Below are positions 37,361-51,217 of a DNA stretch of 64,000 nucleotides, piece after piece; the first letter of the stretch is position 1, and each line of letters begins with the position of its first letter. A program made the translations under genes and the position numbers. The stretch is from NCBI GenBank assembly GCA_020723485.1, contig DYIU01000002.1, positions 157,543 to 221,542 of the forward strand. The letters are read 5' to 3'. The stretch is from Acidimicrobium ferrooxidans (GTDB lineage: Bacteria > Actinomycetota > Geothermincolia > Fen-727 > Anoxymicrobiaceae). The notes under the pieces were generated by a model. That model worked only from the letters and a program-made list of their open reading frames with translations. It was not told where the DNA came from and searched no databases.

Positions 37361-39793
37361 TTGACCACCGGCGCTGCCAGGCACCTGGAGGACGAGAGGC
37401 CGAGGCTGGACCGCGAGAAAACCGCGCGCGCCCTCTCCGAGTTGTTCGCGTGGAGGCAGAACCGGTTCTCCTGCCTCCTGGTCCGGGTCCTCTCGAGGTT
37501 CCTCTACCCTCTCGAGGAGGGGACTTACGTCGGGAGGGTCCTGCCCGGGCACCCCCACAGGTCCAGCAGGATAGAGACCACACCGATGACCGTCTTCATC
37601 GTGCCCGAGGGGCGCCGGCAGAAGCTCTACCTGGCGGCTCGGCTCCGGATGAGGGGGCCCATCAACCTGATCCAGGACCCGGGGGCCGACGCGAAGATGA
37701 CCTCGTTCAGGGAGCCGGGCAGGATGAGGAGGCGCCGCCGCGGGCCCTCGGACGAAGCCCGCGAGTACAACGACCTGAGCGGCGGACTGGTCCGGATGGA
37801 AGCGCTGCTGGCGGTCCAGCACGCCGCGGACGAGAGCATCACGGTGGTCCCCGTGACACGGTCGTTCCACCAGCACCACCCTGAGTCGCCCCCCACGACC
37901 TGGCCGGCCAGGTTCTACTGGTACACGCCGATGCATGTCATCAGGAGGATAGCGAGCCTCGCGAGGACGTTCCACACCGCCGGAGTCAAGAACTGCACAC
38001 CGGTCGACCTCGCCGCCTGGGTGGAGAGCAACCCGAGGAACGACCTGCGCTCGCAGGCGGTCGCCCTCCGGAGAGAGGTCATAAGCAATATCGAGTCAGA
38101 GCACCGCGCCACCACCGGGCCGCCCCTGGCTCCGCGCTGGGAGGTCAAGAAACTCGTCCTGTCGGACCCGGTCCTGAGCGAATACATCAGAAAGCGCGCG
38201 ATGCAGCTGGGCGTCAACACCGAGGTTGTGTTCAGAGAGGCCCAGGAGTACATAGGCGAGATAGCCTCTAACGTCAGGGTCGGGGTCCTCAGGTATTTCG
38301 GGGCACTCATCACCAGGGGCTTCGACAAGCTCCTCAAGGGCTTCGAGGTCGACCGCGAAGGCATCCAGCTGCTCACGCAGTGCGACAGCCGCTCGCGGGT
38401 GGTCCTTGTCTGCTGCCACAAGAGCTACATGGACCCGCTCATGATCGCCTATGGTATCTGCCGTTCGGGCCTGATGGCGCCCCAGCAGGCCGCCGGCATC
38501 AACCTCAATATCTGGCCGCTCGGCTGGGTGCTGAGGCACTGCGGGGCGTTCTACCTGCGCCGCACGTTCGTCGGCGAAAGCCTCTACAAGGAAGTCTTTA
38601 GTGCCTACGTCAGGCACCTGCTGGCGGAGAACTTCATCACCGCCTTCTACATAGAGGGGACCAGGAGCAGGGACGGCAAGCTCCAGAAACCCAAGACCGG
38701 CTACCTGGCCATCCTGGAAGAGGCTATGCAGCTGGGGGTGTGCGACGACATCACGCTGGTGCCGGTCTATCTCGGATACGACAGGGTGCCCGAGGAGGAC
38801 GGCCACGTCCGTGAGATGGAGGGCGGCCAGAAGATAGCAGAGACCATGAAGCTCTTCTCCCGGATATACAAATCCGTGACCACTACCCTCGGCCGCGCTT
38901 ACATCAAGTTCGGCCCCACTATGAACTTCCGGGCCCTTGTCGAGGAGCACGGCCTCGATGGGGCTGCCGGGATCGTATGCGACAGGATAAACGACATCAC
39001 CGTCGTGACCGCAAGGTCGCTCGCGTCGTGCGCGCTACTCTCCTGCGGTGGCACCTGGGTCTCCGTGAACGAATTCGACACGGCCGCCGGGCAGATACTG
39101 AAGGTGTGCGCCCGGATGGCCCCGCCCATGGCCGGCGATGCCGACAGGCGTGGGGTGCGCTCGGCCGTGGACTGGCTGGCCCTCGAGGACCGCGTCGCTC
39201 CCGAGGAGAGGGAGGGCGCGGCCGGTTTCAGGGTCGAGGGGGACGGCCGCCGCTTCCTGGAGTACAACAAGAACATCCTGCTCGCCCACCTGCTCAGGCC
39301 CGCCCTGGCGGCGGTAGCCGAAAGGGCCTCCGGTCGAGTCCCGGTCGAGCAGTCCATCACGTTCCTGAAGCGCCTGTTCGCCGAGGAGTTCGTGTTCGGC
39401 CCGGGTGAGCCCGAGGCTGACATCCGGCCTGCTCTCGAGGCTGGGGCGGACGTACTGGCCGCACTCCTCGACTCGTTCCTGGAGGGCTACCTCGTCGCCT
39501 GCAAGACTCTGGACTCGATGGCGGATGGGCCCCCGGTTGCTGATGCCGAGATGGTCCGACGGTGCTTCGATGCCGGGATTGAGATGCTCGACGAGGGGGT
39601 CATCGGGCGCGAGGAGTCGCTCTCCAGGATACTTTTCGGGAACGCGCTCAAGAACTTCAGGAAGATGGATATCCTGGCTCGACCCGAGCCCGATGAATCC
39701 GGAAAGGAAGAGCGGGCCCTGGTCCCGGGAGAGCTCTTCAGCGAGAGGGCGGACATCCTCGAGAGCATCGAGTCGCTGCTCGGCGGACCTTGA
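37361..39793 (+). CDS. Large PlsB-like glycerol-3-phosphate acyltransferase
   Basis: An 810-residue protein with the acyltransferase motifs in the middle: CHKSYMDP (HxxxxD), PLGWVLRHCGAFYLRR, FYIEGTRSRDGKLQKPKTG and VPVYLGYDRV. Size and motif order match the PlsB/DHAPAT family, which acylates the sn-1 position of glycerol 3-phosphate. The first 230 residues and last 250 are less conserved and helical; no clear membrane helix is visible. The start is a TTG with AAAGGG eight bases upstream. It is convergent with a TetR gene and close to flavoprotein genes that may act on lipids. The gene symbol is left blank because PlsB paralogues exist. Confidence 0.8.
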   Translation: MTTGAARHLEDERPRLDREKTARALSELFAWRQNRFSCLLVRVLSRFLYPLEEGTYVGRVLPGHPHRSSRIETTPMTVFIVPEGRRQKLYLAARLRMRGPINLIQDPGADAKMTSFREPGRMRRRRRGPSDEAREYNDLSGGLVRMEALLAVQHAADESITVVPVTRSFHQHHPESPPTTWPARFYWYTPMHVIRRIASLARTFHTAGVKNCTPVDLAAWVESNPRNDLRSQAVALRREVISNIESEHRATTGPPLAPRWEVKKLVLSDPVLSEYIRKRAMQLGVNTEVVFREAQEYIGEIASNVRVGVLRYFGALITRGFDKLLKGFEVDREGIQLLTQCDSRSRVVLVCCHKSYMDPLMIAYGICRSGLMAPQQAAGINLNIWPLGWVLRHCGAFYLRRTFVGESLYKEVFSAYVRHLLAENFITAFYIEGTRSRDGKLQKPKTGYLAILEEAMQLGVCDDITLVPVYLGYDRVPEEDGHVREMEGGQKIAETMKLFSRIYKSVTTTLGRAYIKFGPTMNFRALVEEHGLDGAAGIVCDRINDITVVTARSLASCALLSCGGTWVSVNEFDTAAGQILKVCARMAPPMAGDADRRGVRSAVDWLALEDRVAPEEREGAAGFRVEGDGRRFLEYNKNILLAHLLRPALAAVAERASGRVPVEQSITFLKRLFAEEFVFGPGEPEADIRPALEAGADVLAALLDSFLEGYLVACKTLDSMADGPPVADAEMVRRCFDAGIEMLDEGVIGREESLSRILFGNALKNFRKMDILARPEPDESGKEERALVPGELFSERADILESIESLLGGP

Positions 39794-39816: not shown

Positions 39817-40470
39817 TCAGTCGAGCCCGCCGTCGAAGACACCCCTGTCGGGGGAGGGCCCGTTCCCGGGTCCGGCCCTTATCCCGTCGAACACGAGCGA
39901 CACTATCTCGCCGGCCATCGCCCCGAGGTCTATCTCCGCCATCCCCCCGAGCAGCACGTCCCAGAACGGGACCTGCAGGAAGAGCGTGAACATGGCGCGC
40001 GATACGAGAGTGGAGTCCACCTCCCTCAGCACGCCCGCTTTCCTGCCCCTGGCCATCATCTCAGAGAACAGGGCTATCATCCGTCTCTCAAAATCGTCCC
40101 AGATGGCATAGAAACCGGGGTCGCTCCTGAACGCCTCCCTGAAGTAGACGATGATCACGCCCCTGTTGTCCAGGAATAGCCTGTAGGAGACCTCGAGGCT
40201 GTTCCGCATCGCCTGCCTGAGATGCGAGGGTTCGTCCACCTCGAGCATGTCCCTGCTGGATTCGTGGAGGGTCCTGAATATCTCCGACACTATCTCGAAG
40301 AGCACCTGACGCTTGTTCGGGAAGTACTTGTAGAAGGTGCCCCTGGCAATGCCGGCCTCTGCCAGGATATCGGACACAGTCGTGGCCCTGTACCCTTTCC
40401 TGGCGAATACAGGCCTCGCGGCCTGCAGGATTTTTGCTCTTACATCGACCCGTGCCAAGCCTCCGACCAC
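39817..40470 (-). CDS. TetR-family transcriptional regulator
   Basis: About 217 residues. The helix-turn-helix is at the N-terminus: ILQAARPVFARKGYRATTVS then DILAEAGIARGTFYKYFPNK. The remaining helical part is a ligand-binding domain, with an aromatic-rich RLFLDNRGVIIVYFREAF and a Gly/Pro-rich tail. The start is uncertain: GTG at 40470, TTG at 40458, or GTG at 40512. Its position opposite the PlsB-like gene and next to the flavoprotein cluster suggests control of lipid genes, but its target is not shown by the sequence. Confidence 0.88.
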   Translation of the reverse strand: MVGGLARVDVRAKILQAARPVFARKGYRATTVSDILAEAGIARGTFYKYFPNKRQVLFEIVSEIFRTLHESSRDMLEVDEPSHLRQAMRNSLEVSYRLFLDNRGVIIVYFREAFRSDPGFYAIWDDFERRMIALFSEMMARGRKAGVLREVDSTLVSRAMFTLFLQVPFWDVLLGGMAEIDLGAMAGEIVSLVFDGIRAGPGNGPSPDRGVFDGGLD

Positions 40471-40516
40471 CTCGCCCGGTCCATCTGTCGGCGCGCAGGC
40501 AAATTCTAACACCCGC

Positions 40517-40590
40517 GCAACATCGGGGTCAGGTCACTTTGTTGCGTTTTCAGTTGCAACATCGGGGTCAGGTCACTTTGTTGCGTTTTT
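40517..40590. repeat. Tandem pair of the dispersed palindromic repeat
   Basis: Two nearly identical copies (40517-40550 and 40556-40590), 39 bases apart. Each reads GCAAC, ATCGGGGTCAGGTCACTTT, GTTGCGTTTT. GCAAC and GTTGC can pair, so each copy can form a hairpin followed by a T-run on the plus strand. They lie upstream of the TetR gene and of the FAD gene pair. Confidence 0.85.
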
Positions 40591-40658
40591 AGTCGCGCAC
40601 CGGATACGACATAATGTCGCCCTCGCGTCCCAAGAACGCTGACTCCCGGTCAACATTG

Positions 40659-40718: not shown

Positions 40719-41816
40719 ATGGCTGGCAAGAGCACTGAGGCGACCATCTACGGAGCCGGAATGTCGGGGCTGATCGCGGCGATCAACCTGGCCAGGGACG
40801 GGTATTCGGTCACCGTCCACGACCGCGAGTCGGGGTACGGGGGCTCTCAGCTGTACAACCCGTCCACCCACGTGACCCCTATCGACCCGGTGGCCACCTC
40901 CGAGTACATCGGCATCGATATCGCGCCGGTGTTCCACCAGCTTGCGCGGCCGATCCCCTTCTTCTTCCACGACACCCCGGCGCCGATTCCCGGCGAGGCG
41001 TTTTACGCCGTGGAGAGAGGCGACAGGGCGACCAGCCTGGACACGCTGCTCTTCAACGAGTGCAAGGGCCTTGACATAAAGTTCGAGTTCAACTCGCCGC
41101 TGGAGAAGGACGATCTCGCGAGCCTCCCTCCCAACACCATCATCGCGTGCGGGCTTACGCCGTCTGCGTACAGGATGCTCGACATTCCTCTCCTGCCGTG
41201 GTACGGATGGATATCCAGGGGCGAACTGGACATCGGGACTTACGCATGGATATGGTGGGACGAGTGCATCTCCGAGTACGGCTACCTCTCGTCGGTCAAC
41301 GGGTATTATTTCGACCTGCTCTTCAGCACGCGGGAGGTCAGCAGGGAGTGCCTGCGCAAGTACAACCGTTTCATGGTCCGAAACGAGGGCATCGAGCATG
41401 ATAACTGGCAGTACGTCTCAGGCGCCGTGCCCCTGGCGTCCCCCGACAACCCACGGCTGTTCTGGGGAGACCACATCCTCTGCGGCACCATCTCCGGCGC
41501 GATGGACCCGTGGTTCTGGTTCGGCATATCCGGCGCCCTGGTGACCGGGAAGGTCGCCGCGATAGCCGTCTCCGACAGGGAGAAGGCCCTCAGGGAGTTC
41601 GAGCGGTTCACAAGGAAGTTCCAGCTCATCTACCGGATAAAGAACAGCTTCTGGTACCCCTTCTTCAGGCCCTACGTCAAGCACCACGAGCGCGCCATCA
41701 ACCTAATCGGCAGCTCCACCGCCGAGAAATTCGGCGTGCTGCTTGACAGGCGCGCGGCGGCCGGCAAAGTCAAGATGGGCCTGGTGCCGGGCTTCGGCCG
41801 CTATAACTACTCGTGA
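40719..41816 (+). CDS. FAD-dependent oxidoreductase of unknown substrate (paralogue 1)
   Basis: A 365-residue soluble flavoprotein. The N-terminal dinucleotide-binding motif is YGAGMSGLIAAINLARDGY (about 9-27) with HDRESGYGG at the end of the second strand. The C-terminal FAD motif region is TISGAMDPWFWFGISGALVT (about 253-272), as in geranylgeranyl-reductase-like proteins. A conserved GSQLYNPSTHVTPIDPVATS block and many Trp/Tyr residues (DIGTYAWIWWDE) line a probable hydrophobic pocket. AGGAGG lies four bases before the ATG. It is followed by a close paralogue. The substrate is unknown; a lipid or isoprenoid is a guess from neighbours. Confidence 0.7.
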   Translation: MAGKSTEATIYGAGMSGLIAAINLARDGYSVTVHDRESGYGGSQLYNPSTHVTPIDPVATSEYIGIDIAPVFHQLARPIPFFFHDTPAPIPGEAFYAVERGDRATSLDTLLFNECKGLDIKFEFNSPLEKDDLASLPPNTIIACGLTPSAYRMLDIPLLPWYGWISRGELDIGTYAWIWWDECISEYGYLSSVNGYYFDLLFSTREVSRECLRKYNRFMVRNEGIEHDNWQYVSGAVPLASPDNPRLFWGDHILCGTISGAMDPWFWFGISGALVTGKVAAIAVSDREKALREFERFTRKFQLIYRIKNSFWYPFFRPYVKHHERAINLIGSSTAEKFGVLLDRRAAAGKVKMGLVPGFGRYNYS

Positions 41817-41831
41817 GGCCAAGGAGGCAAA

Positions 41832-42917
41832 TTGACAGCCAACAGGAATGAAGCCACCGTCTTCGGGGCCGGGATGTCCGGCCTCATAGCGGCCGTCAAC
41901 CTGGCACGGGAAGGGTACTCGGTCACCGTGCACGACCGCGAGCCGGGGTACGGGGGCTCGCAGCTGTATAACCCCTCGACTCACGTCACACCGCTCGACC
42001 CTGTGGCGACTTCCGAATACATAGGCATAGATATCACCCCGGCGTTCCACCCGGTGCTCGAGTGCCCATCGTACTTTCACGAGACCAGGGTGCGCCTCCC
42101 CGTGGAGGGCGTCTACGCAGTTGAGCGCGGCGACCGGCCTACCAGCCTCGATACCCTGCTGTTCAACGAATGCAGAGGTCTGGACATCGCATTCGAGTTC
42201 AACTCACCCCTCACGAAGGAGCGGTTGGGCGACCTCCCCCCCAACACGGTCATAGCCTGCGGCCTGACGCCCTCGGCTTACGAGATGCTCGATATCCCGT
42301 ACCTCAAGTGGTACGGGTGGATCTCCCGCGGCGAAACCGGCATAGGCAGCTACGCCTGGCTCTGGTGGGACGAGTGCATAACCGAATACGGTTACTTCTC
42401 GGCGGTCAACAACTACTACTTCAACCTTCTGTTCAGCATACGCGAGGTCGGCTGGGACGCGCTCGAGAAGTACAAGAGGTTCATGGTCCGCAACGAGGGG
42501 ATCGAGCACGACAACTGGCAGTACGTCTCAGGCGCCGTGCCCGTGCTGGTCCGCGAGAATCCGCGGCTCTTCGTGGACGGCGCGGTCCTCGCCGGGACCA
42601 TCTCCGGGGCGATGGACCCCATGATGTGGTTCGGCATCTCCGGGGCGCTCGTCACGGGCAAGGTGGCCGCCCTCGCGGTCGTCTCGAAGGAGCGCGGCCA
42701 GGAGGAGTTCGACCGCTTCATGCGCAGGTTCGCGCTCCACCACGCGATCAAGAACAAGGTATGGTACAGGTTCATCAGGCCCAACGTCGGGATGCTGGAG
42801 CGGGGCGTCAACATGCTCGGGCCCCGCAACGTCGAGCGCATGGGCGCCCTCATGCCTGCGGGCAGAATACCAGTGAAGTCGGCGGTCCCCGGCTTCAGTT
42901 ACATGTCCTGCAGCTGA
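41832..42917 (+). CDS. FAD-dependent oxidoreductase of unknown substrate (paralogue 2)
   Basis: A 361-residue paralogue of the preceding gene, alignable end to end (FGAGMSGLIAAVNLAREGY, GSQLYNPSTHVTPLDPVATS, TISGAMDPMMWFGISGALVT). Differences cluster in the pocket segments after residue 75 and in the tail. The TTG start has AGGAGG four bases upstream and lies 15 bases after the first gene, so both come from one transcript. A tandem duplication with retained operon structure suggests a heterodimer or two related substrates (inference). A strong terminator follows. Confidence 0.7.
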   Translation: MTANRNEATVFGAGMSGLIAAVNLAREGYSVTVHDREPGYGGSQLYNPSTHVTPLDPVATSEYIGIDITPAFHPVLECPSYFHETRVRLPVEGVYAVERGDRPTSLDTLLFNECRGLDIAFEFNSPLTKERLGDLPPNTVIACGLTPSAYEMLDIPYLKWYGWISRGETGIGSYAWLWWDECITEYGYFSAVNNYYFNLLFSIREVGWDALEKYKRFMVRNEGIEHDNWQYVSGAVPVLVRENPRLFVDGAVLAGTISGAMDPMMWFGISGALVTGKVAALAVVSKERGQEEFDRFMRRFALHHAIKNKVWYRFIRPNVGMLERGVNMLGPRNVERMGALMPAGRIPVKSAVPGFSYMSCS

Positions 42918-42985: not shown

Positions 42986-44467
42986 CTATTTCTTCGCCAG
43001 CTTCATGATCCATCTCAGTGCCGCCAGCACACCGAGGGCGAGTCCCGCGAACGTCATCGGCTTCAGTATCTTCAGCAGCGGCTCGTTGACCGTGAACTCC
43101 TTGTTGAGCGAGATGGACGTGCCCATCTTGTCGGCCGCCACGAGCTCCGCGACCTTGTTCGCGTTCCATATCGCCGCTTCCATGCCCCCCGAGGAGACGT
43201 GGGTCTTGGTATAGTCGCCGGTCAGGTAGAAGTTGTCGTAGGGCGAGCGCTGGAAGGGGCGGTGGTCCTCCATGCCCGGTGCCGCCCGATACACGCCCTG
43301 GCGCTCACGCACCACTTTCCACTTCTTCACCTGCGCCTCCCGGGCGATGGGGAACCTGTCCTTGATCTGCTCTATCGCGATGTCGAATATAACCTTGTCC
43401 GGCAGGCCCTGTACGTGGTCCGCCGGCGAGAGGACCATCTCGAACATGGAGCCGTCCTTGAATATGTGGGGCTGCACGTTCGAAAGGTCAGCATAGGTGT
43501 TGAAGATGCAGTCGTTCGAGAAGAACGTGACGTCGACGTCCGTGAGCTTCCTGTCGAACCACACCTGCAGAGACAGCGACGGGGCGTACTGGAAGTGCCA
43601 CAGGTCACGGAAGTACTGGTAGTCGAACGACTCGTCAGGCAGGACCCTCCTGAGAGAATAGGGGCTTATCGCCGAGACGTAGAGGTCGGCCTCCAGGGTC
43701 TCCGAGTCGTTGACCACGATATTCTTGACCTTGCCGTCCTCGACGTTTATCGCGGTGACCGCCTTGTTGAGGGCCACCTCCCCGCCCTTGCGCTTGATGT
43801 AGTCGAGGCAGTTGTCGACCCAGATCTCACCGAGCCCGCCGTTGGCGAACCCTACCCTCGCGTTGTCAGCGGAGCCCATGACCTTCATGCCCCAGTTCAT
43901 CATGACCTTGGCGCTGATGCCCCACGACGGGGTGAACGTCAGCCCGTTTATCCCCGGCTCCATGACCGCCTGGAGCCCTTCCAGTGGCGCGTAACGGTAG
44001 ATAAAGGTGGCCATGCTCATGCGGTCCAGCTTGTTTATTTTCTCCTCGCTGAACATCAGACCCAGCGCCATCGGGAAGCCCGCGGCGATGACCTTCCACT
44101 TCGCGATGCCCTTGTAGTCCTTGAGGAGGTGCGCGAAAGCGTAGGCGGCGTGGAAGGGCGCCGGTATCTTCTTGAACTTGAGCACCGCCTGGTTCCCGTT
44201 CTCCTGCGCGTAGTAGAACTCGGTGTTCTTCCAGAGAAGGTTCTCGTAGATCCCCATCTTCTTGAAGAACTCGAGCAGGTTCACGTAGTAGGGGAAGAAC
44301 ACGTGCAGGGCGTTATCGATCATGTCCCCGTCTTCGTCAAGCCAGGAGCTCGCCCTGCCGCCGAACATCTCGTCGGCCTCGACAAGGGATACCTCGACCC
44401 CGAGGTCGAGCAGGTTGATGGCGGTGGCAAGGCCGCCCATCCCCCCTCCCATGATTAATGCTTTCAT
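42986..44467 (-). CDS. Phytoene-desaturase-like FAD-dependent oxidoreductase
   Basis: A 493-residue flavoprotein of the carotenoid desaturase/isomerase and protoporphyrinogen-oxidase superfamily. The N-terminal motif is MKALIMGGGMGGLATAINL followed by GVEVSLVEADEMFGGRASS; the C-terminal FAD motif is FYLTGDYTKTHVSSGGMEAA. The last about 25 residues (FAGLALGVLAALRWIMKLAKK) form a membrane anchor. GGAGG lies five bases before the ATG at 44467. No carotenoid synthesis genes (crtB, crtE) are in the window, so the substrate may be another polyene, quinone or lipid. Confidence 0.8.
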   Translation of the reverse strand: MKALIMGGGMGGLATAINLLDLGVEVSLVEADEMFGGRASSWLDEDGDMIDNALHVFFPYYVNLLEFFKKMGIYENLLWKNTEFYYAQENGNQAVLKFKKIPAPFHAAYAFAHLLKDYKGIAKWKVIAAGFPMALGLMFSEEKINKLDRMSMATFIYRYAPLEGLQAVMEPGINGLTFTPSWGISAKVMMNWGMKVMGSADNARVGFANGGLGEIWVDNCLDYIKRKGGEVALNKAVTAINVEDGKVKNIVVNDSETLEADLYVSAISPYSLRRVLPDESFDYQYFRDLWHFQYAPSLSLQVWFDRKLTDVDVTFFSNDCIFNTYADLSNVQPHIFKDGSMFEMVLSPADHVQGLPDKVIFDIAIEQIKDRFPIAREAQVKKWKVVRERQGVYRAAPGMEDHRPFQRSPYDNFYLTGDYTKTHVSSGGMEAAIWNANKVAELVAADKMGTSISLNKEFTVNEPLLKILKPMTFAGLALGVLAALRWIMKLAKK

Positions 44468-44773
44468 CAAAACCTCCATTCAGTCATGGCTTCCGGGGCC
44501 GGTCGGGTCCCCGGCGCGACTGAGTATATTTCAAAACCCGTCGTGTTGAAAGCGCCCGTGAACCGGCCGGTACTGTTTCCTTACCGTAACCACGGACAGT
44601 GTCGCTCCTTCATGCAGCCGGCATGCCCGGGACCGGGCCTGACCATCATTCCACGAGGTGGACCTCAAACCCAGGCCTGACCCTGGTTTAAGTTGATATA
44701 GAATCGTCATGCCGGGTCTTCGAGCGACCCCGTCCAGGCGCGGCGGGGCAGGCCCATTAAGAAGGAGATTCTC
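44468..44773. other. 306-base intergenic region with divergent promoters
   Basis: No coding potential seen. On the plus strand a TAGAAT (44700-44705) with a weak CTGACC upstream precedes the hydrolase gene. On the minus strand TATACT near 44525 may serve the desaturase gene. The region also holds GGCCTGACC twice (near 44636 and 44675) and an imperfect AAACCCAGG/CCCTGGTTT palindrome at 44668-44691. These may be remnants of the dispersed repeat or operator sites. Confidence 0.4.
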
Positions 44774-45667
44774 ATGGTTGCGACCGAGGACTGGAAGGAC
44801 GAGTTCGTCGAGGCTAACGGCATAAGGTTCCACTGTGTCACCCAGGGTGAAGGCGAACTGGTCCTCCTGCTGCACGGGTTTCCGGAATGCTGGTACTCGT
44901 GGCGCCACCAGATACCGTTCCTGGCCCGGCGGTTCAAGGTGGTGGCTCCGGACCTGCGCGGGTACGGCCGGAGTGACAAGCCGGAAGGGGTGTCCGCCTA
45001 TACCCTCGACAAACTGGTCGGGGACGTGAAGGGGCTTATCGAGGCTTTCGGGGCGCCGCGGGCGCACGTGGTCTCCCACGACTGGGGAGGCGCTGTCGCC
45101 TGGATGTTCGCGGTATCCCACCCCGAGCTCCTGGACAGGCTCGTGGTCATGAACGCTCCGCACCCCGCGGCGTTCGCCAGGGAACTGTCGGCGGGTCTCC
45201 GCCAGCTTAAGCGCTCGTGGTACATGTTCTTCTTCCAGCTGCCTCACGTCCCTGAGGCTGCCTTTAGGGCAAACGACTACGCCGTTTTGAAGAGGTCGTT
45301 CAGAGGGTGGGCGATAGACAAGAGCGCGTTCCCCGATGAGGTGCTCGACGAGCTGGCGAGGGAAGCCGGGCGCCAGGGGGCGCTCACCGGGGGCATCAAC
45401 TACTACCGGGCAATGATGCGGGGCAACCTCAAGCAGATGATGAGGAACCGAGAGGCCCTGACCTTCGGGTTCCCCCGCCTAAGCAGGCCCACCCTCCTCA
45501 TCTGGGCCGAGGAGGACCGCGCACTAGAGAAAGAGCTGACCTACGGTCTCGACCGTTACTTCGAGGAGGGGATGCTCACAATCCGGTACGTACCGACCTG
45601 CAGCCACTGGGTTCAGCAGGAGCAGCCCCTGCTGGTCAACGAGTTCCTGGACGAGTTCCTCAGGTAG
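44774..45667 (+). CDS. Alpha/beta hydrolase, epoxide hydrolase-like
   Basis: A 297-residue hydrolase. HGFPE at 34-38 gives the oxyanion hole; SHDWGGAVAW (101-110) has Asp103 as nucleophile, the epoxide hydrolase or haloalkane dehalogenase type rather than a Ser esterase; AEEDRAL and CSHWVQQEQP near the end supply the acid and the His. A cap domain of about 60 residues sits between. Tyr residues typical of epoxide hydrolases are present in the cap (YYRAMMR). AAGGAG lies six bases before the ATG. The substrate is unknown. Confidence 0.82.
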   Translation: MVATEDWKDEFVEANGIRFHCVTQGEGELVLLLHGFPECWYSWRHQIPFLARRFKVVAPDLRGYGRSDKPEGVSAYTLDKLVGDVKGLIEAFGAPRAHVVSHDWGGAVAWMFAVSHPELLDRLVVMNAPHPAAFARELSAGLRQLKRSWYMFFFQLPHVPEAAFRANDYAVLKRSFRGWAIDKSAFPDEVLDELAREAGRQGALTGGINYYRAMMRGNLKQMMRNREALTFGFPRLSRPTLLIWAEEDRALEKELTYGLDRYFEEGMLTIRYVPTCSHWVQQEQPLLVNEFLDEFLR

Positions 45668-45715: not shown

Positions 45716-46819
45716 TCAGCCGATGAAGCGCCGCCTGCCCGCCTTGAGGAGGAGGCCCTCCCCCACGGTCACGAGCTTCATGTCGCTGAGCATTATGTCC
45801 AGGGGGAATCCCGAGATTCCGTGAGCCCGGGCGAACTCCCCGAGCCAGGACCCCCACATCGCGTACGATATGCCCAGGAAGATTATCGTATCCAGGTTAT
45901 CCCTCCAGGTGACGGGATCATCGAAGGCGGCCGTCGCCAGGCCTTCCGAAAGGGTCCGGTACCCCTGGAGCGCGGACAGGTGATGGATCCAGGAGTAGGC
46001 CTCGTTCCCCTCGAGGTCAAAGCTCCCCTGCCTGCTCACCAGTATCTCTGAGGCCTCGCGGGCCGCCCTCGCGAACAGCCCCGGGAGCGCGGAGACCACC
46101 AGGGAACGTTCCCTGGCGAACGCGCCCTTGCTGTTCTTCGAGTGCCCCTCCCCCACTCCCCCCAGCACCGAATCGGCCGGCAGTTCTACTCCGTCGAACT
46201 CCAGCTCGGCGTGAGGAGAGGTCTGGAGGAAGTTCAGGTCCATCCTCCTGGCCGTGAACCCCGGACAGGAGGTCTCCACCAGGAACGCGGTCAGCTCCTT
46301 GTCACCTGTCTCGAGCTGCCCGGTCACCGCTATCACTACTAGCAGGTCGGCCACCGGCCCGTCCGTGATGAACATCTTCCTGCCGTCGAGCCTGAACCCG
46401 GACGACGTCCGGGTGGCCGTGGTCTGCATCCCGCCGGGATGCGCCCCGGTCTTGGGCTCGGATACCGCCGCGGCGCCGACCCACTCGCCCGACGTCAGCA
46501 CCGGCAGGTATTTCTTCTTCTGCTCGTCCGTGCCGAACGCCTCGATGGACTTTTCGCACAGGCTCAAGTGGGTTATCCACGAGAGGGTGAGCCCGAGGTC
46601 GCAGCCCTGCTCGGCGAACTCCCTGACCGCGGCTGAGAGCTGCCTCACATCGCCCCCGGAGCCCCCGTAGCGTTCATCGACGGTGATGCCCAGGAGCCCC
46701 AACCGGCCCATCGACTTCCAGAGGTCTCTCGAGAACGAACCCGCCTCGTGCCGCTCTGCCAGCGTGCCGAGAACCCGCTCTGAGGCGAATGCCGTGATCT
46801 CATCCAACGACGCGTTCAA
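45716..46819 (-). CDS. Acyl-CoA dehydrogenase family protein
   Basis: A 367-residue flavoprotein. LGLLGITVDERYGGSGGDVR (about 40-59), AVSEPKTGAHPGGM (FAD/substrate region), FRLDGRKMFITDG and the C-terminal helical domain are typical of the family. It probably oxidises an acyl-CoA at C2-C3, but the catalytic Glu cannot be placed with certainty. The TTG start has GGGAGG five bases upstream. It is the last gene of the four-gene operon begun by the glycyl-radical enzyme, so its substrate may be the product of that enzyme after activation (inference). Confidence 0.82.
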   Translation of the reverse strand: MNASLDEITAFASERVLGTLAERHEAGSFSRDLWKSMGRLGLLGITVDERYGGSGGDVRQLSAAVREFAEQGCDLGLTLSWITHLSLCEKSIEAFGTDEQKKKYLPVLTSGEWVGAAAVSEPKTGAHPGGMQTTATRTSSGFRLDGRKMFITDGPVADLLVVIAVTGQLETGDKELTAFLVETSCPGFTARRMDLNFLQTSPHAELEFDGVELPADSVLGGVGEGHSKNSKGAFARERSLVVSALPGLFARAAREASEILVSRQGSFDLEGNEAYSWIHHLSALQGYRTLSEGLATAAFDDPVTWRDNLDTIIFLGISYAMWGSWLGEFARAHGISGFPLDIMLSDMKLVTVGEGLLLKAGRRRFIG

Positions 46820-46843: not shown

Positions 46844-47686
46844 CTACACTATCCTCTCGGCAACCAGCGGCGGCATGCAGGAGTAAGCCTCCTCCACCCG
46901 GACCACGCCCACCTCGAGGCCCATGTGTTTCTCGAAACGCTCCAGCGTGCCCTTCACCTGGTAGGTCATGAGCTCCATCGTGAGCACGTTCAGAGCGACC
47001 GGGGAACCGGGCTTTATGTCGGCGGCGCGCCTGTTGTACGACGAGAGCTTGAACCGCAGCTCTCCCGGGGTACGGAAGAGGACGCCGAACACCGGCACCA
47101 CGTCCGCCTCACCGTCGCCGCCCACGAACGCCAGGACCTTTATGGACATGATGCTGTCAAACTTGGAGCGTATGGTCGGAGGGACGGCCGCCCCGCCGAC
47201 AGGCCCGCCGCGGCCTATGCGTCCGAGCGTCCTCATGGCGGCGAACTCGACGCCGACCTTCAGGAACGACAGCTTCCCGGGGAGGTCCATGAGCTCGCGC
47301 ACGGAGGCGACGGCCAGGTTGTGGATGCCGCCGTAGGCGTTGTACCTGAAGAAATCTATCTCGTTTATCCGGTCGACGTACGGGCCGGACTCGGTCCAGT
47401 ACTCGAGTTCCCCCTTGAAACCCGCCATCTCCAGCTTCTCGGTGAGAGCGATGCTCGCGAACCTGGGATTGGAGGCGAGGTTCGCCTTCGTCTTTATCAT
47501 CATGAATTCGCCGAATGCGACCTTCCCGGGGTCCACGGGTGTCTGGCTCACTATCAGGACGACGTTCGGCACTCTTTCAGGTGAAACGGTCGCCAGGAAC
47601 TTCGCCACCTCGCCCTGCTCGTATATCGCCGCCGCGCCGGGTGGGAGCTCAACGGTTGTTCCGACTGCCTCTTTGACGAGCTCCAC
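46844..47686 (-). CDS. Tandem split-barrel FMN-binding (PPOX-like) protein
   Basis: A 280-residue protein that looks like two PNP-oxidase-type split barrels in a row. The first (about 22-120) has FLATVSPERVPNVV and GEFMMIKTKANLASNPRF; the second (about 180-270) has LAFVGGDGEADVVPVFGV and LSSYNRRAADIKPGSPVALN. The matching strand order in each half suggests internal duplication. Such proteins bind FMN, F420 or heme and are often reductases. The GTG start has AAGGAGG five bases upstream. Its function in this operon is unknown. Confidence 0.65.
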   Translation of the reverse strand: MELVKEAVGTTVELPPGAAAIYEQGEVAKFLATVSPERVPNVVLIVSQTPVDPGKVAFGEFMMIKTKANLASNPRFASIALTEKLEMAGFKGELEYWTESGPYVDRINEIDFFRYNAYGGIHNLAVASVRELMDLPGKLSFLKVGVEFAAMRTLGRIGRGGPVGGAAVPPTIRSKFDSIMSIKVLAFVGGDGEADVVPVFGVLFRTPGELRFKLSSYNRRAADIKPGSPVALNVLTMELMTYQVKGTLERFEKHMGLEVGVVRVEEAYSCMPPLVAERIV

Positions 47687-47709: not shown

Positions 47710-48672
47710 TCAGCTCTCACGCCTGGTGGCCCCCGACCAGACTACCTCTTTCACGCCCGAGCACCTGGCTATGTCGGCCAGGCGCTCCATCCGGGCCGCT
47801 TCGATGAGGGGCCTTCCCTCCAGCTTCCACTCCAGGTCGAGCCTCCGGTACTTGGAGCCGCAGGTGTTGTTGAATGCGAGCAGGTCCCACCTCCGGGCGC
47901 TCGCGAGCTCCTCTCCGATGAACGATGCGAGGGCCGCGATGTTTTCATCGGAGTCGGTGCAGCCGGGGATGACCGGGGTCCGGATCCAGAGCGGCCTGTC
48001 CCCGGTCCCGACGAGCCTGGCGCTGTCCAGGACCGGTCCGAGCTCCACGCCGGTCAGCTCGCGGTGCCTGTCGGGGTCCATCAGCTTGAGGTCCAGCAGG
48101 ACCATGTCGGCGTGTTCTAGGAGCCGCGTGAGCACCCCTGGAGGGGAATAGCCGGAAGTGTCCAGCGCAGTGTGGAGCCCTGCCTCCTTCGCCATGGAGA
48201 GGAACCGCTCGACGAACCGCCGCTGCATGCTTGGCTCTCCGCCGGAAACCGTGACACCGCCGCCCGAGTTGCGGTAAAACGCCTCGTCCCTCATGACCTC
48301 GTCGAGCGCCTCGGTGGGCGTGTAACGCCTTCCGACGACCTCGAGCGCGCCGGCGGGACACGCGTCGGCGCACTTGCCGCAGGCGTCGCAGGCTTCGCGG
48401 TCTATCAGCATGCCCTCCGCGGTGAGCTGGAGCGCGCCGACGGGACATGCCCCCAGGCAGTCCCGGGCGCCGATGCACCGGACGTCGAACCACATGAGCT
48501 GCGGTGCGGCCTCGAGCCCCTCCGGGTTGTGGCACCACACGCACCGCAGGGGGCAGCCCTTCATGAAGAGCGTGGTGCGGATGCCGGGGCCGTCCTCTAT
48601 GGAGAACCGCTGTATGTTGAAGATGTTCCCGGTCTCACCTGCCGGGTGTTCCGGGCTCACCTTAGAGCTCAT
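47710..48672 (-). CDS. Glycyl-radical enzyme activating enzyme
   Basis: A 320-residue radical-SAM activase. The SAM cluster motif is C-x3-C-x2-C in GCPLRCVWCHNPEG (about 40-53). Two extra ferredoxin-type clusters follow (CLGACPVGA and CDACGKCADACPAGA, about 72-110), the insert found in activases of dehydratase/alkylsuccinate-type enzymes and absent from PflA. SGGEPSMQ and VLLDLKLMDPDRHRELTG are family blocks. The ATG overlaps the 3' end of the glycyl-radical enzyme gene by 11 bases, so the two are coupled. Confidence 0.92.
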   Translation of the reverse strand: MSSKVSPEHPAGETGNIFNIQRFSIEDGPGIRTTLFMKGCPLRCVWCHNPEGLEAAPQLMWFDVRCIGARDCLGACPVGALQLTAEGMLIDREACDACGKCADACPAGALEVVGRRYTPTEALDEVMRDEAFYRNSGGGVTVSGGEPSMQRRFVERFLSMAKEAGLHTALDTSGYSPPGVLTRLLEHADMVLLDLKLMDPDRHRELTGVELGPVLDSARLVGTGDRPLWIRTPVIPGCTDSDENIAALASFIGEELASARRWDLLAFNNTCGSKYRRLDLEWKLEGRPLIEAARMERLADIARCSGVKEVVWSGATRRES

Positions 48673-51055
48673 GCGTCTCCCGGGCGATGATCTCGTCCTG
48701 GATCTCCTTGCCCAGCATCGTGAAATACGCGTTGTAGCCCGTCACCCTCACAAGGAGGTTGGAGTACTCGGACGGTTTCCGCTGTGCCTCCCTGAGCGTC
48801 TCGGGGTCAATCACGTTTATCTGGAGGGCGGTTCCGCCCTTCTCCCCGTATCCCCTCAGGTACGCGGCGAGCTTCTCGACGCGCCCGGGTCCGCGCAGGA
48901 GCGACGGGTTGAACGAGATGGTGTGCGAATCGCCGTTCGGGACCGTCTCGAGGCCCAGCTTGCCAACAGAGACTGCCACCGCGGTCGGCCCTTTCCTGTC
49001 GGTGCCGTCCACCGGGCACAGCCCGTTCGACAGGAACTTGCCCCGCTTCCTGCCGTCCGGCGTCGCCGACGTGAAAGGCGCGTAGGCAATCCAGTAGTTC
49101 CACGACAGGTAACCGCCCCTGTACTGGCGGCCGTTGGGCGTCTTGTGCTTGAAGACCTCCTCGGTCCAGAGCCTCGAGAGGTACCGCGCCACCCCGTCGG
49201 CATAGTCGTCGTCATTGCCGTACTTCGGCGCCTTGTTTACCAGCGTCAGCCTGAGCTTCTCGTGGCCCTCGTAGTTGTCCTCGATGGCTTTGATGAGCTC
49301 GTCCATGGAGACGGCGCCCTCCTCGTAGACCAGTTTCTTTATCGCCGTCAGCGAATCCGCGGCGGTCGCGAACGCCACCCCCTCTACGGTCACGTAGTTG
49401 TGCTCGGGACCGGCGTTGGTCACGTCGCGGCCGGACTCGGCGCAGCCGTCGACCAGCGCCGAGAGATACGGCGTGGGCTCAAAGGAGGCCCGTATCGAGT
49501 CGCTGAAGTCGTAGAACTCGATAAAGCGGTGCAGGAGCGCCATGAGCTGCTTCTCGAAGGCGGAGCGGAACTCCTCCCAGCTCCTGAACCCGCGCGGGTC
49601 GCCGGTGCGAGGCCCCAGCCTGTCGCCGGTCGCCTGGTCTTTACCGTTGAAGAGCGTGAGCTCTACCGCCTTTGCGAGGTTGACGTTGACGTCCACCGTG
49701 CCCGAGCGGTCGTTGCCCTGCAGGGTGTTCTCCAGGCAGCCCACCGGGGCGTAGTCCCAGAGGTCCTTCTCTGGCAGACCCTGCCACCTCAGCGCGGCCT
49801 CGGAGGCCTCGTCGAAGTTGAGCAGGAACGGCGAGCCCTGGGACTCGGCTATCATGCCCGCCACCCGGGCCATCAGGTCGTCGGGAGTGTTCTTGTGGAG
49901 CCTGACGTTGGGCTTGGGCTCGAGCAGGTTCATCTCCTCGATGACGTCCAGCATCAGCCAGGTCAGCTCGTTGGAGGCGTCCTCACCGTCGGGTCCGTGG
50001 CCCCCGATGGTTATCAGCTGTCCGTAGCCGCTCGTTATGCCCCGGATGCGCATCACCCTGTACATGAAGTCGTAGGCGTAGTTGGGCTTTATCCACCAGC
50101 AGTCGAGGAGCTCCTTCGCCTGCGCGCGCGTAAGCCTGCCCCCGTCGATGTCGGCCTTGTAGTAAGGGTAGAGGTACTGGTCGATGCGGCCGGGGGACAG
50201 CCCGGGTCCGGGGTATGACTCCTGGACCATCACCAGCATGTGGATGAACCAGAGCGCCTGAAGCGCCTCGTGAAACGTCTCCGGCGGCTCCCAGGGGACC
50301 TTCTCGCAGATGCGCCCGATCTCCTCGAGCTCCGCCCGGCGCGCGGGGTCGTCGCACTCGGAAGCAAGCCTCCGCGCCTCGGCGGCGTACCGCGCAGCGA
50401 ACTCCCTGGCGCCCTCACAGCAGATGATGAGCGCCTCGAGGAACTCCTTGTGGGCACGGTCCGAGGTCTCCGCGCTCAGCTTGCGGAAGTGCTCGACCAG
50501 CCCCTTGAGGCCCAGCTTCAAGGCCCTGGGGTAATCGGGTATCAGGTGCCCCGGGGTCGCCCCGGCGTTCCCCATGCCGTGGTTGTTGAGGACCTCGATC
50601 TCCTCGAGCCATTTCATGGTCTTCTTCTTCCAGGCCCTGGCCTCGGAGCGGTTCTGGGCGCGCGACAGGGCGGCATTGAACTGGCCGCCGACGATGAGCT
50701 CGCCGTCGAGTATCCGAACCGGCAGGTAGCGGGCGATGACCTCCTTGAAGAATACGGCGACCCTCACTATGTGCGGCCTGTCCCAGAAGTCGGCGGGCAG
50801 CTCGACCCTGGTCGCGACCAGCGGAAGGGACTCCATGAAAGCCTTGTGAAAGGCCAGCAGGTCGGGAACCACTCCCCACAGGGCGGGAGACCACATGGTG
50901 TCCCACTCGGTCCCGGTGGTGAAAGGCATGATCTCGTTGTGGAAATCGCGGTTGCTGATGTCGACGTATTCCTCGCGGAGCCTGGCGACTCTTTCGGAAA
51001 GCTGCTCTGAGGGGTTCCAGAGCTCCTCCGCGCCAAGAGCACATGAGTCTTTCAT
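48662..51055 (-). CDS. Glycyl-radical enzyme of uncertain substrate class
   Basis: A 797-residue anaerobic enzyme. The thiyl Cys440 is in PVGCLENTLQGN, with Glu442 two residues on (C-x-E); Gly773 in VRVTGYNAYF carries the radical. C-x-E excludes pyruvate formate-lyase, which has Cys-Cys, and fits the dehydratase, C-N/C-S lyase, decarboxylase or fumarate-adding branches. NNHGMGNAGATPGHLIPDYP and GNDDDYADGVARYL match that broad group. The ATG at 51055 has GGAGG five bases upstream; 28 further in-frame codons upstream are rejected. Adjacent activase, split-barrel and acyl-CoA dehydrogenase genes point to acyl-chain chemistry, but the substrate is not assignable by eye. Confidence 0.9.
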   Translation of the reverse strand: MKDSCALGAEELWNPSEQLSERVARLREEYVDISNRDFHNEIMPFTTGTEWDTMWSPALWGVVPDLLAFHKAFMESLPLVATRVELPADFWDRPHIVRVAVFFKEVIARYLPVRILDGELIVGGQFNAALSRAQNRSEARAWKKKTMKWLEEIEVLNNHGMGNAGATPGHLIPDYPRALKLGLKGLVEHFRKLSAETSDRAHKEFLEALIICCEGAREFAARYAAEARRLASECDDPARRAELEEIGRICEKVPWEPPETFHEALQALWFIHMLVMVQESYPGPGLSPGRIDQYLYPYYKADIDGGRLTRAQAKELLDCWWIKPNYAYDFMYRVMRIRGITSGYGQLITIGGHGPDGEDASNELTWLMLDVIEEMNLLEPKPNVRLHKNTPDDLMARVAGMIAESQGSPFLLNFDEASEAALRWQGLPEKDLWDYAPVGCLENTLQGNDRSGTVDVNVNLAKAVELTLFNGKDQATGDRLGPRTGDPRGFRSWEEFRSAFEKQLMALLHRFIEFYDFSDSIRASFEPTPYLSALVDGCAESGRDVTNAGPEHNYVTVEGVAFATAADSLTAIKKLVYEEGAVSMDELIKAIEDNYEGHEKLRLTLVNKAPKYGNDDDYADGVARYLSRLWTEEVFKHKTPNGRQYRGGYLSWNYWIAYAPFTSATPDGRKRGKFLSNGLCPVDGTDRKGPTAVAVSVGKLGLETVPNGDSHTISFNPSLLRGPGRVEKLAAYLRGYGEKGGTALQINVIDPETLREAQRKPSEYSNLLVRVTGYNAYFTMLGKEIQDEIIARETHEL

Positions 51056-51217
51056 CGGTACCTCCGTTCCAGTGCCCGGCGTATCCTTTTGCCGATAAAT
51101 ATAGCACAGAGCAGGCCCTGCGACCTTGACGCTTCTCATCCGGGCGCCCGGCCCGCGGGAGCGCTCTTCGTTGTCCGCAAGGCACGTTCACTGGTAAGCT
51201 AGCCGGAGTCGGATACA

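Follow-up and report, generated by a model that had tools for sequence, protein, structure and literature searches.

FADa and FADb, encoded by two adjacent genes in the window (the whole 64,000-nucleotide stretch that was analysed), belong, on the evidence of a predicted structure and profile comparisons, to an undescribed family of FAD oxidoreductases with the fold of the geranylgeranyl reductases (GGRs) and FixC. The most conserved partner of the pair is a glycyl radical enzyme (GRE) encoded about 6 kb away with its activase and a PNPOx-like protein, and not the nearby PlsB-like acyltransferase; the earlier note does not mention the GRE. FADa (40719–41816, plus strand; ATG start, 365 residues) and FADb (41832–42917, plus strand; TTG start, 361 residues) are arranged head to tail, 15 nt apart. 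They are identical at 243 of 360 positions (68%; BLASTP), and the earlier note was right to describe them as two adjacent, alignable flavoprotein genes; the common blocks that it pointed out, GSQLYNPSTHVTP and VRNEGIEHDNWQYVSGAVP, are present in both. Its remark that the family could not be recognised beyond the FAD fold also holds, as no Pfam or NCBIfam model claims either protein.

Against Pfam, both proteins give only short N-terminal dinucleotide-domain matches, and neither matches PF01593 at E ≤ 0.01; weak PF01593 matches are found in ten of 24 family members at E ≤ 0.001 (best E 7.7e-7). Sequence comparison with the PDB returned only N-terminal Rossmann matches for the pair. Among NCBIfam families the highest-scoring is GG-red-SF (TIGR02032), with 30.9 bits for FADa and 27.4 for FADb against a cut-off of 158.8, which is not reached. 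All 24 members of a family alignment (A1) touch this same family, and comparison of the alignment with Pfam and NCBIfam showed no family specific to the members. Literature searches found nothing describing the family, and a scan of named genomes with the single proteins found no close relatives. Scanning with the alignment yielded 20 loci; the six at the end of the list (L062–L067; E 3e-6 to 4e-5) were dropped because their matches cover only short, mostly N-terminal stretches.

The family is present in all 31 genomes of Ca. Geothermincolia (Actinomycetota), the class of the window, at E ≤ 1e-100 throughout and with 1–15 copies each; the window's own genome (3.36 Mb) has 14 members. The class was recognised through G401, the genome of locus L053 (Ca. 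Geothermincola primus), which matches at the same places as the class genome G015; NCBI assigns that genus to Ca. Geothermincolia. In a phylum sample of 396 genomes (these 31 and 365 others), only one of the 365 has a match, which is weak and partial (E 2.5e-20). Two small unrelated classes also carry the family, in three of three genomes (the class of G398) and two of two (the class of G397). Such a distribution, class-wide and almost absent from the rest of the phylum, is the mark of a metabolic speciality of Ca. Geothermincolia. A record labelled Spirochaetes contains a copy from the clade of FADa and FADb (the a/b clade; L049:9989–11080), 62% identical to that of L044, which reflects either transfer or mis-binning.

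The two copies differ with dN 0.25 and dS 0.95 (NG86), and both have therefore long been kept under purifying selection. Compared in blocks of 20 residues, they are least similar at 61–100, at 241–260 and above all in the C-terminal helices (281–365), while the β-sheet segments at 141–200 are 75–80% identical. The divergence had been assigned to probable substrate segments; this is only partly the case. The phylogenetic tree (75 rows) was built from all open reading frames rather than from called genes because the gene calls erred over FAD genes, placing three tandem ones on the wrong strand (L056/L098) and truncating or missing others (L046, L040). FADb falls inside a starred set of nine family and order copies (support 96/89), with L009 of genome G005 as its nearest row. 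FADa falls outside the surrounding ten-row order/family set and groups with L021 (92/87, not starred). These positions identify FADb as the orthologue and FADa as an older, divergent duplicate. The sister genera have a single copy, syntenic with FADb, between the TetR gene and the desaturase-like gene wherever the contig permits a view. Within the a/b clade, the 31 class genomes showed only one further tandem arrangement, that of G005, whose second copy is fragmented; G002, G018, G027 and G030 were counted as having no close a/b-clade member, G027 and G030 carrying copies of 42–43% at the syntenic GRE site. An old duplication would thus have produced the tandem pair, with FADb retaining the ancestral role and FADa drifting, mostly in its C-terminal helices, perhaps towards a related substrate.

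A TetR-family regulator (39817–40512, minus strand; best match FadR with 57 bits, below cut-off) is divergent from FADa and is a conserved neighbour in the order. The intergenic region between them contains two tandem 39-nt copies (40517–40594; 95% identical) with short GCAAC/GTTGC arms. By eye, no such copies were seen in the upstream regions of six relatives, and no convincing common palindromic operator for the TetR gene was found among seven upstream regions. Convergent with FADb, and adjoining its orthologues in the order only, is the gene described earlier as a membrane-anchored desaturase-like flavoprotein (42986–44479, minus strand); it is present and has a hydrophobic C-terminal tail, and we class it as Amino_oxidase/phytoene-desaturase-like. 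The supposed epoxide hydrolase, 1.9 kb away, is likewise present (44774–45667, plus strand) and is a partly conserved neighbour, but the epoxide-hydrolase-like product can be classed only as an α/β hydrolase. It is followed by an acyl-CoA dehydrogenase-like protein with N and M domains only (45716–46819), the PNPOx-like protein (46844–47686), the radical SAM GRE activase (47710–48672; TIGR02494, 315.6 bits, above cut-off) and the GRE itself (48662–51139, with its start probably near 51055), all on the minus strand.

On the other side of the pair, the PlsB-like acyltransferase (37361–39793, plus strand) is indeed there and matches GPAT_C in Pfam. A partnership with FADa and FADb was rejected, since none of 12 orthologue loci (L036–L047) has a gene that clusters with it. 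It lies between leuS and the TetR gene, a position in which the relatives' loci that were read have no such gene, and appears to have been inserted in this genome.

The GRE has orthologues at least 62% identical to it in 27 of the 31 class genomes, and in 15 of the 31 an FAD gene is found within 9 kb of the GRE on the same contig. In G012 and G027 the contig carries an FAD gene and the PNPOx-like gene and runs out at that point, and in six others (G003, G004, G005, G023, G025 and G026) contig ends prevent the linkage from being judged. FAD and GRE genes are separate in G014, G015 (by 23 kb) and G024; the GRE is absent and the FAD gene present in G006, G008 and G019; G018 has the GRE with no close FAD gene and G002 has neither. 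The other flank of the locus varies (leuS and TetR in the order, Rnf genes, named by eye, in family f5), and the FAD–GRE link has therefore outlived rearrangement. Aligned to glycerol dehydratase, the GRE keeps the C-x-E motif (GCLEN) and the glycyl loop (RVTGYNAYF); its score is far too low for any named NCBIfam GRE, and it belongs to no named subfamily. The activase and the PNPOx-like protein, its constant partner, accompany it in nearly every locus read. A 390-residue protein with no Pfam match (L047:7619–8794 and orthologues) is encoded beside the FAD gene in the family f5 loci, and its orthologue adjoins the PNPOx-like gene in G018.

For FADa, the structure predicted by AlphaFold (18 rows; pLDDT 89.1, pTM 0.89) gives its best alignments with PDB entry 3oz2, the GGR-like protein Ta0516 (Z 25.6, 321 aligned residues, 3.5 Å, 16% identity), with FixC (7koe_C; Z 25.1) and with Sulfolobus GGR (Z 24.1–24.5), followed by aromatic hydroxylases at a Z of about 21; the top match of Foldseek by itself is the hydroxylase VioD. 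Profile comparison with hhalign against the lineage's own GGR-family set gave a probability of 97.7% (E 1.5e-12, columns 3–286; with only ten of the eleven GGRs that score above the cut-off, 95.0%, E 3.8e-8). In this alignment the GGR segments PREKICGDG, GADGPHS and VGDAASMTNP pair with GYGGSQLYNPSTH, ACGLTPS and CGTISGAMDP of the FAD family, respectively.

All 75 family rows have the GxGxxG FAD motif and 72 have the GG doublet; Glu99 is found in 74, Arg100 in 75 and Asp108 in 74. According to PMC10821996, the motifs defining GGRs include LxGD (an FAD contact) and PxxYxWxFP (a cavity motif), the essential cysteine is Cys47 in the S. acidocaldarius enzyme, and several motifs, LxGD among them, are poorly kept among archaeal paralogues. 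The LxGD site is LxG[TS] (Gly256-[TS]257) in all 75 rows and never GD, and an LxGD-type pattern occurs in all ten own-lineage GGRs. At residue 144, the ADG site of GGRs and hydroxylases, 74 of 75 rows have Thr or Cys, one has Ser and none has Asp. The PxxYxWxFP motif is missing from all 75 rows, but also from all ten own-lineage GGRs, nine of which fit a more relaxed pattern designed for a P-SGW[IV]FP variant. The GGR-type CGxG cysteine is not kept, the CGDG segment being the one that pairs with GYGGSQLYNPSTH, and CxxxG occurs within the first 90 aligned residues in only six of 75 rows. A true GGR gene is separately present in 11 of the 12 genomes searched, including the window's own. The family thus has a GGR scaffold without the features that define a GGR; the loss of the motifs could reflect changed chemistry.

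The richness in Trp and Tyr noted earlier is real and belongs to a clade-conserved segment. Trp makes up 6.7% (range 5.1–8.9%) of residues 159–237 across the 28-row a/b clade and 2.6% across the remaining 47 rows of the family, against a background of 1.3% in 62,813 residues of sampled own-genome proteins. Trp161, Trp164, Trp177, Trp179 and Tyr197 are 96–100% conserved in the clade and are found in 0, 6, 4, 32 and 0%, respectively, of the other 47 rows. In the AlphaFold model they fall on predicted strands (159–169, 175–180 and 196–203).

The paralogues elsewhere have their own characteristic surroundings. A cluster conserved in the class contains CrtI-like, FAD, SCP2, FAD_binding_4, CCG, GlcD-like, two or three tandem FAD genes and CrtI-like (L028, L050, L053, L056, L057, L099, L102 and L103, not every gene being present at each), with a thiolase added in the window's own genome. 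The own-genome locus (L028; C7:190500–210000) holds four family paralogues with GlcD/GlcE-like oxidases, a CCG Fe–S protein, SCP2, CrtI-like proteins and the thiolase, and is likely to encode a complex lipid pathway. A second cluster type (L033, L052; names partly by eye) adds an FMN-reductase-like protein and an α/β hydrolase, and in G398, from another class, FAD copies occur with FAD_binding_4 oxidases, CCG proteins, a thiolase, an AMP-ligase and DUF1329. Nine own-genome FAD sites were tested for neighbours within 10 kb. An Amino_oxidase gene is found at five (1.5 expected, P 0.007), an FAD_binding_4 gene at three (0.8 expected, P 0.036) and a GRE at two (0.35 expected, P 0.048); these enrichments are modest, with P values of 0.007–0.05 uncorrected for multiple tests. 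The calculation covered the five contigs holding FAD sites, and one FAD_binding_4 hit elsewhere and one short Amino_oxidase piece were left out. In the window's own genome a second, more distant GRE is encoded 1.5 kb from another family paralogue, with one gene between them (L035:3846–8958; C5 near 740–745 kb).

The window's genome has 31 Amino_oxidase (phytoene-desaturase-like) hits and 22 FAD_binding_4 hits. Squalene/phytoene synthase (PF00494) was found in none of the 31 class genomes, and the same search was positive in seven of 14 controls. The desaturase-like genes are therefore unlikely to act on carotenoids or hopanoids of the cell's own making, a route that we reject on this comparison, and neither they nor the FAD genes should be annotated as carotenoid or hopanoid enzymes.

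In our reading, to which we give an even chance, the family comprises two-electron C=C reductases or dehydrogenases that act on a bulky, probably CoA- or carrier-bound lipid and exchange electrons through protein partners. FADa and FADb, which have dinucleotide-binding N-termini, would bind FAD and would add or remove two hydrogens at a C=C (or C–C) bond of a bulky hydrophobic substrate that may slide over the aromatic-lined central sheet. The electrons would pass to or from a protein partner (the ferredoxin/Rnf pool or Fe–S CCG proteins) and not come straight from NAD(P)H. Among characterised GGRs, ferredoxin or dithionite can be required as the reductant instead of NADPH (PMC10821996). At the window locus the substrate may be a product or precursor of the adjacent GRE module, in a pathway that would handle CoA- or carrier-linked lipids. 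The earlier proposal of a GGR-like role on lipid or isoprenoid double bonds thus gains from the fold (Z 25.6 to 3oz2; 97.7% with hhalign) and from the desaturase-like neighbours (five of nine sites, P 0.007), and loses with the GGR signature motifs, the unconserved PlsB-like gene and the missing squalene/phytoene synthase.

The same fold, and the fact that TIGR02032 is the only NCBIfam family touched by all 24 scanned members, could also mean that FADa and FADb are functional GGRs (polyprenyl/menaquinone or archaeal-type prenyl reductases) that have drifted in sequence. We consider this improbable, given a score of 30.9 bits that is far below 158.8, the missing LxGD, CGxG, ADG and PxxYxWxFP motifs, the real GGR gene in 11 of 12 genomes, and multi-copy clusters that contain thiolase, SCP2 and GlcD genes and not prenyl-transfer genes. 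Somewhat less improbable, though still unlikely, is a flavin-dependent non-redox enzyme (a lycopene-cyclase-like cyclase, an isomerase or a dehydratase) in which reduced FAD only stabilizes a cation. Such an enzyme would be consistent with the loss of LxGD and of the DG motif associated with NAD(P)H, the aromatic-rich segment would suit cation stabilization, and the adjacent GRE and hydrolase are of C–X lyase and hydrolase types; a lycopene-type substrate, however, cannot be made without a phytoene/squalene synthase.

Class A flavin monooxygenases carry two marker motifs, DG (for NAD(P)H/FAD) and GD, and GREs are oxygen-sensitive. An aromatic hydroxylase or epoxidase of this class, feeding the epoxide-hydrolase-like protein 1.9 kb away, would accord with the Foldseek match to VioD, but both motifs are missing, GGR and FixC rank 3–4 Z units above the hydroxylases in VIA and the genomic partners include GREs, making this very unlikely. 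In the window's genome, 14 FAD copies, 31 Amino_oxidase and 22 FAD_binding_4 hits and no synthase suggest anaerobic chemistry on large external hydrophobic molecules, for which the conserved GRE module is a concrete locus. More tentatively, and rather doubtfully as a whole, the family, the GREs and the GlcD/CCG-type carriers might together carry out the anaerobic breakdown or remodelling of terpenoid- or steroid-like lipids from the environment, in organisms that are themselves unable to make C30/C40 isoprenoids.

Among known systems, phytoene desaturases and amine oxidases (PF01593) share the N-terminal dinucleotide motif with the GG doublet and are frequent neighbours of the FAD genes, but the fold list of FADa is headed by GGR and FixC. 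The FixC/ETF-quinone oxidoreductase group is alike in fold (7koe_C), and the paralogous FAD clusters also have Fe–S partners, although the identity is 12% and no EtfAB-type partner was recognised beside the window copy. The family differs from the GGRs (TIGR02032; PDB entries 3oz2 and 3atq) in falling below the family cut-off, in the replacement of CGxG, ADG, LxGD and PxxYxWxFP, in the extra GG doublet and in a length of 361–365 residues with its own C-terminal helices; it resembles them in fold over about 320 residues, in GxGxxG and in profile homology across columns 3–286.
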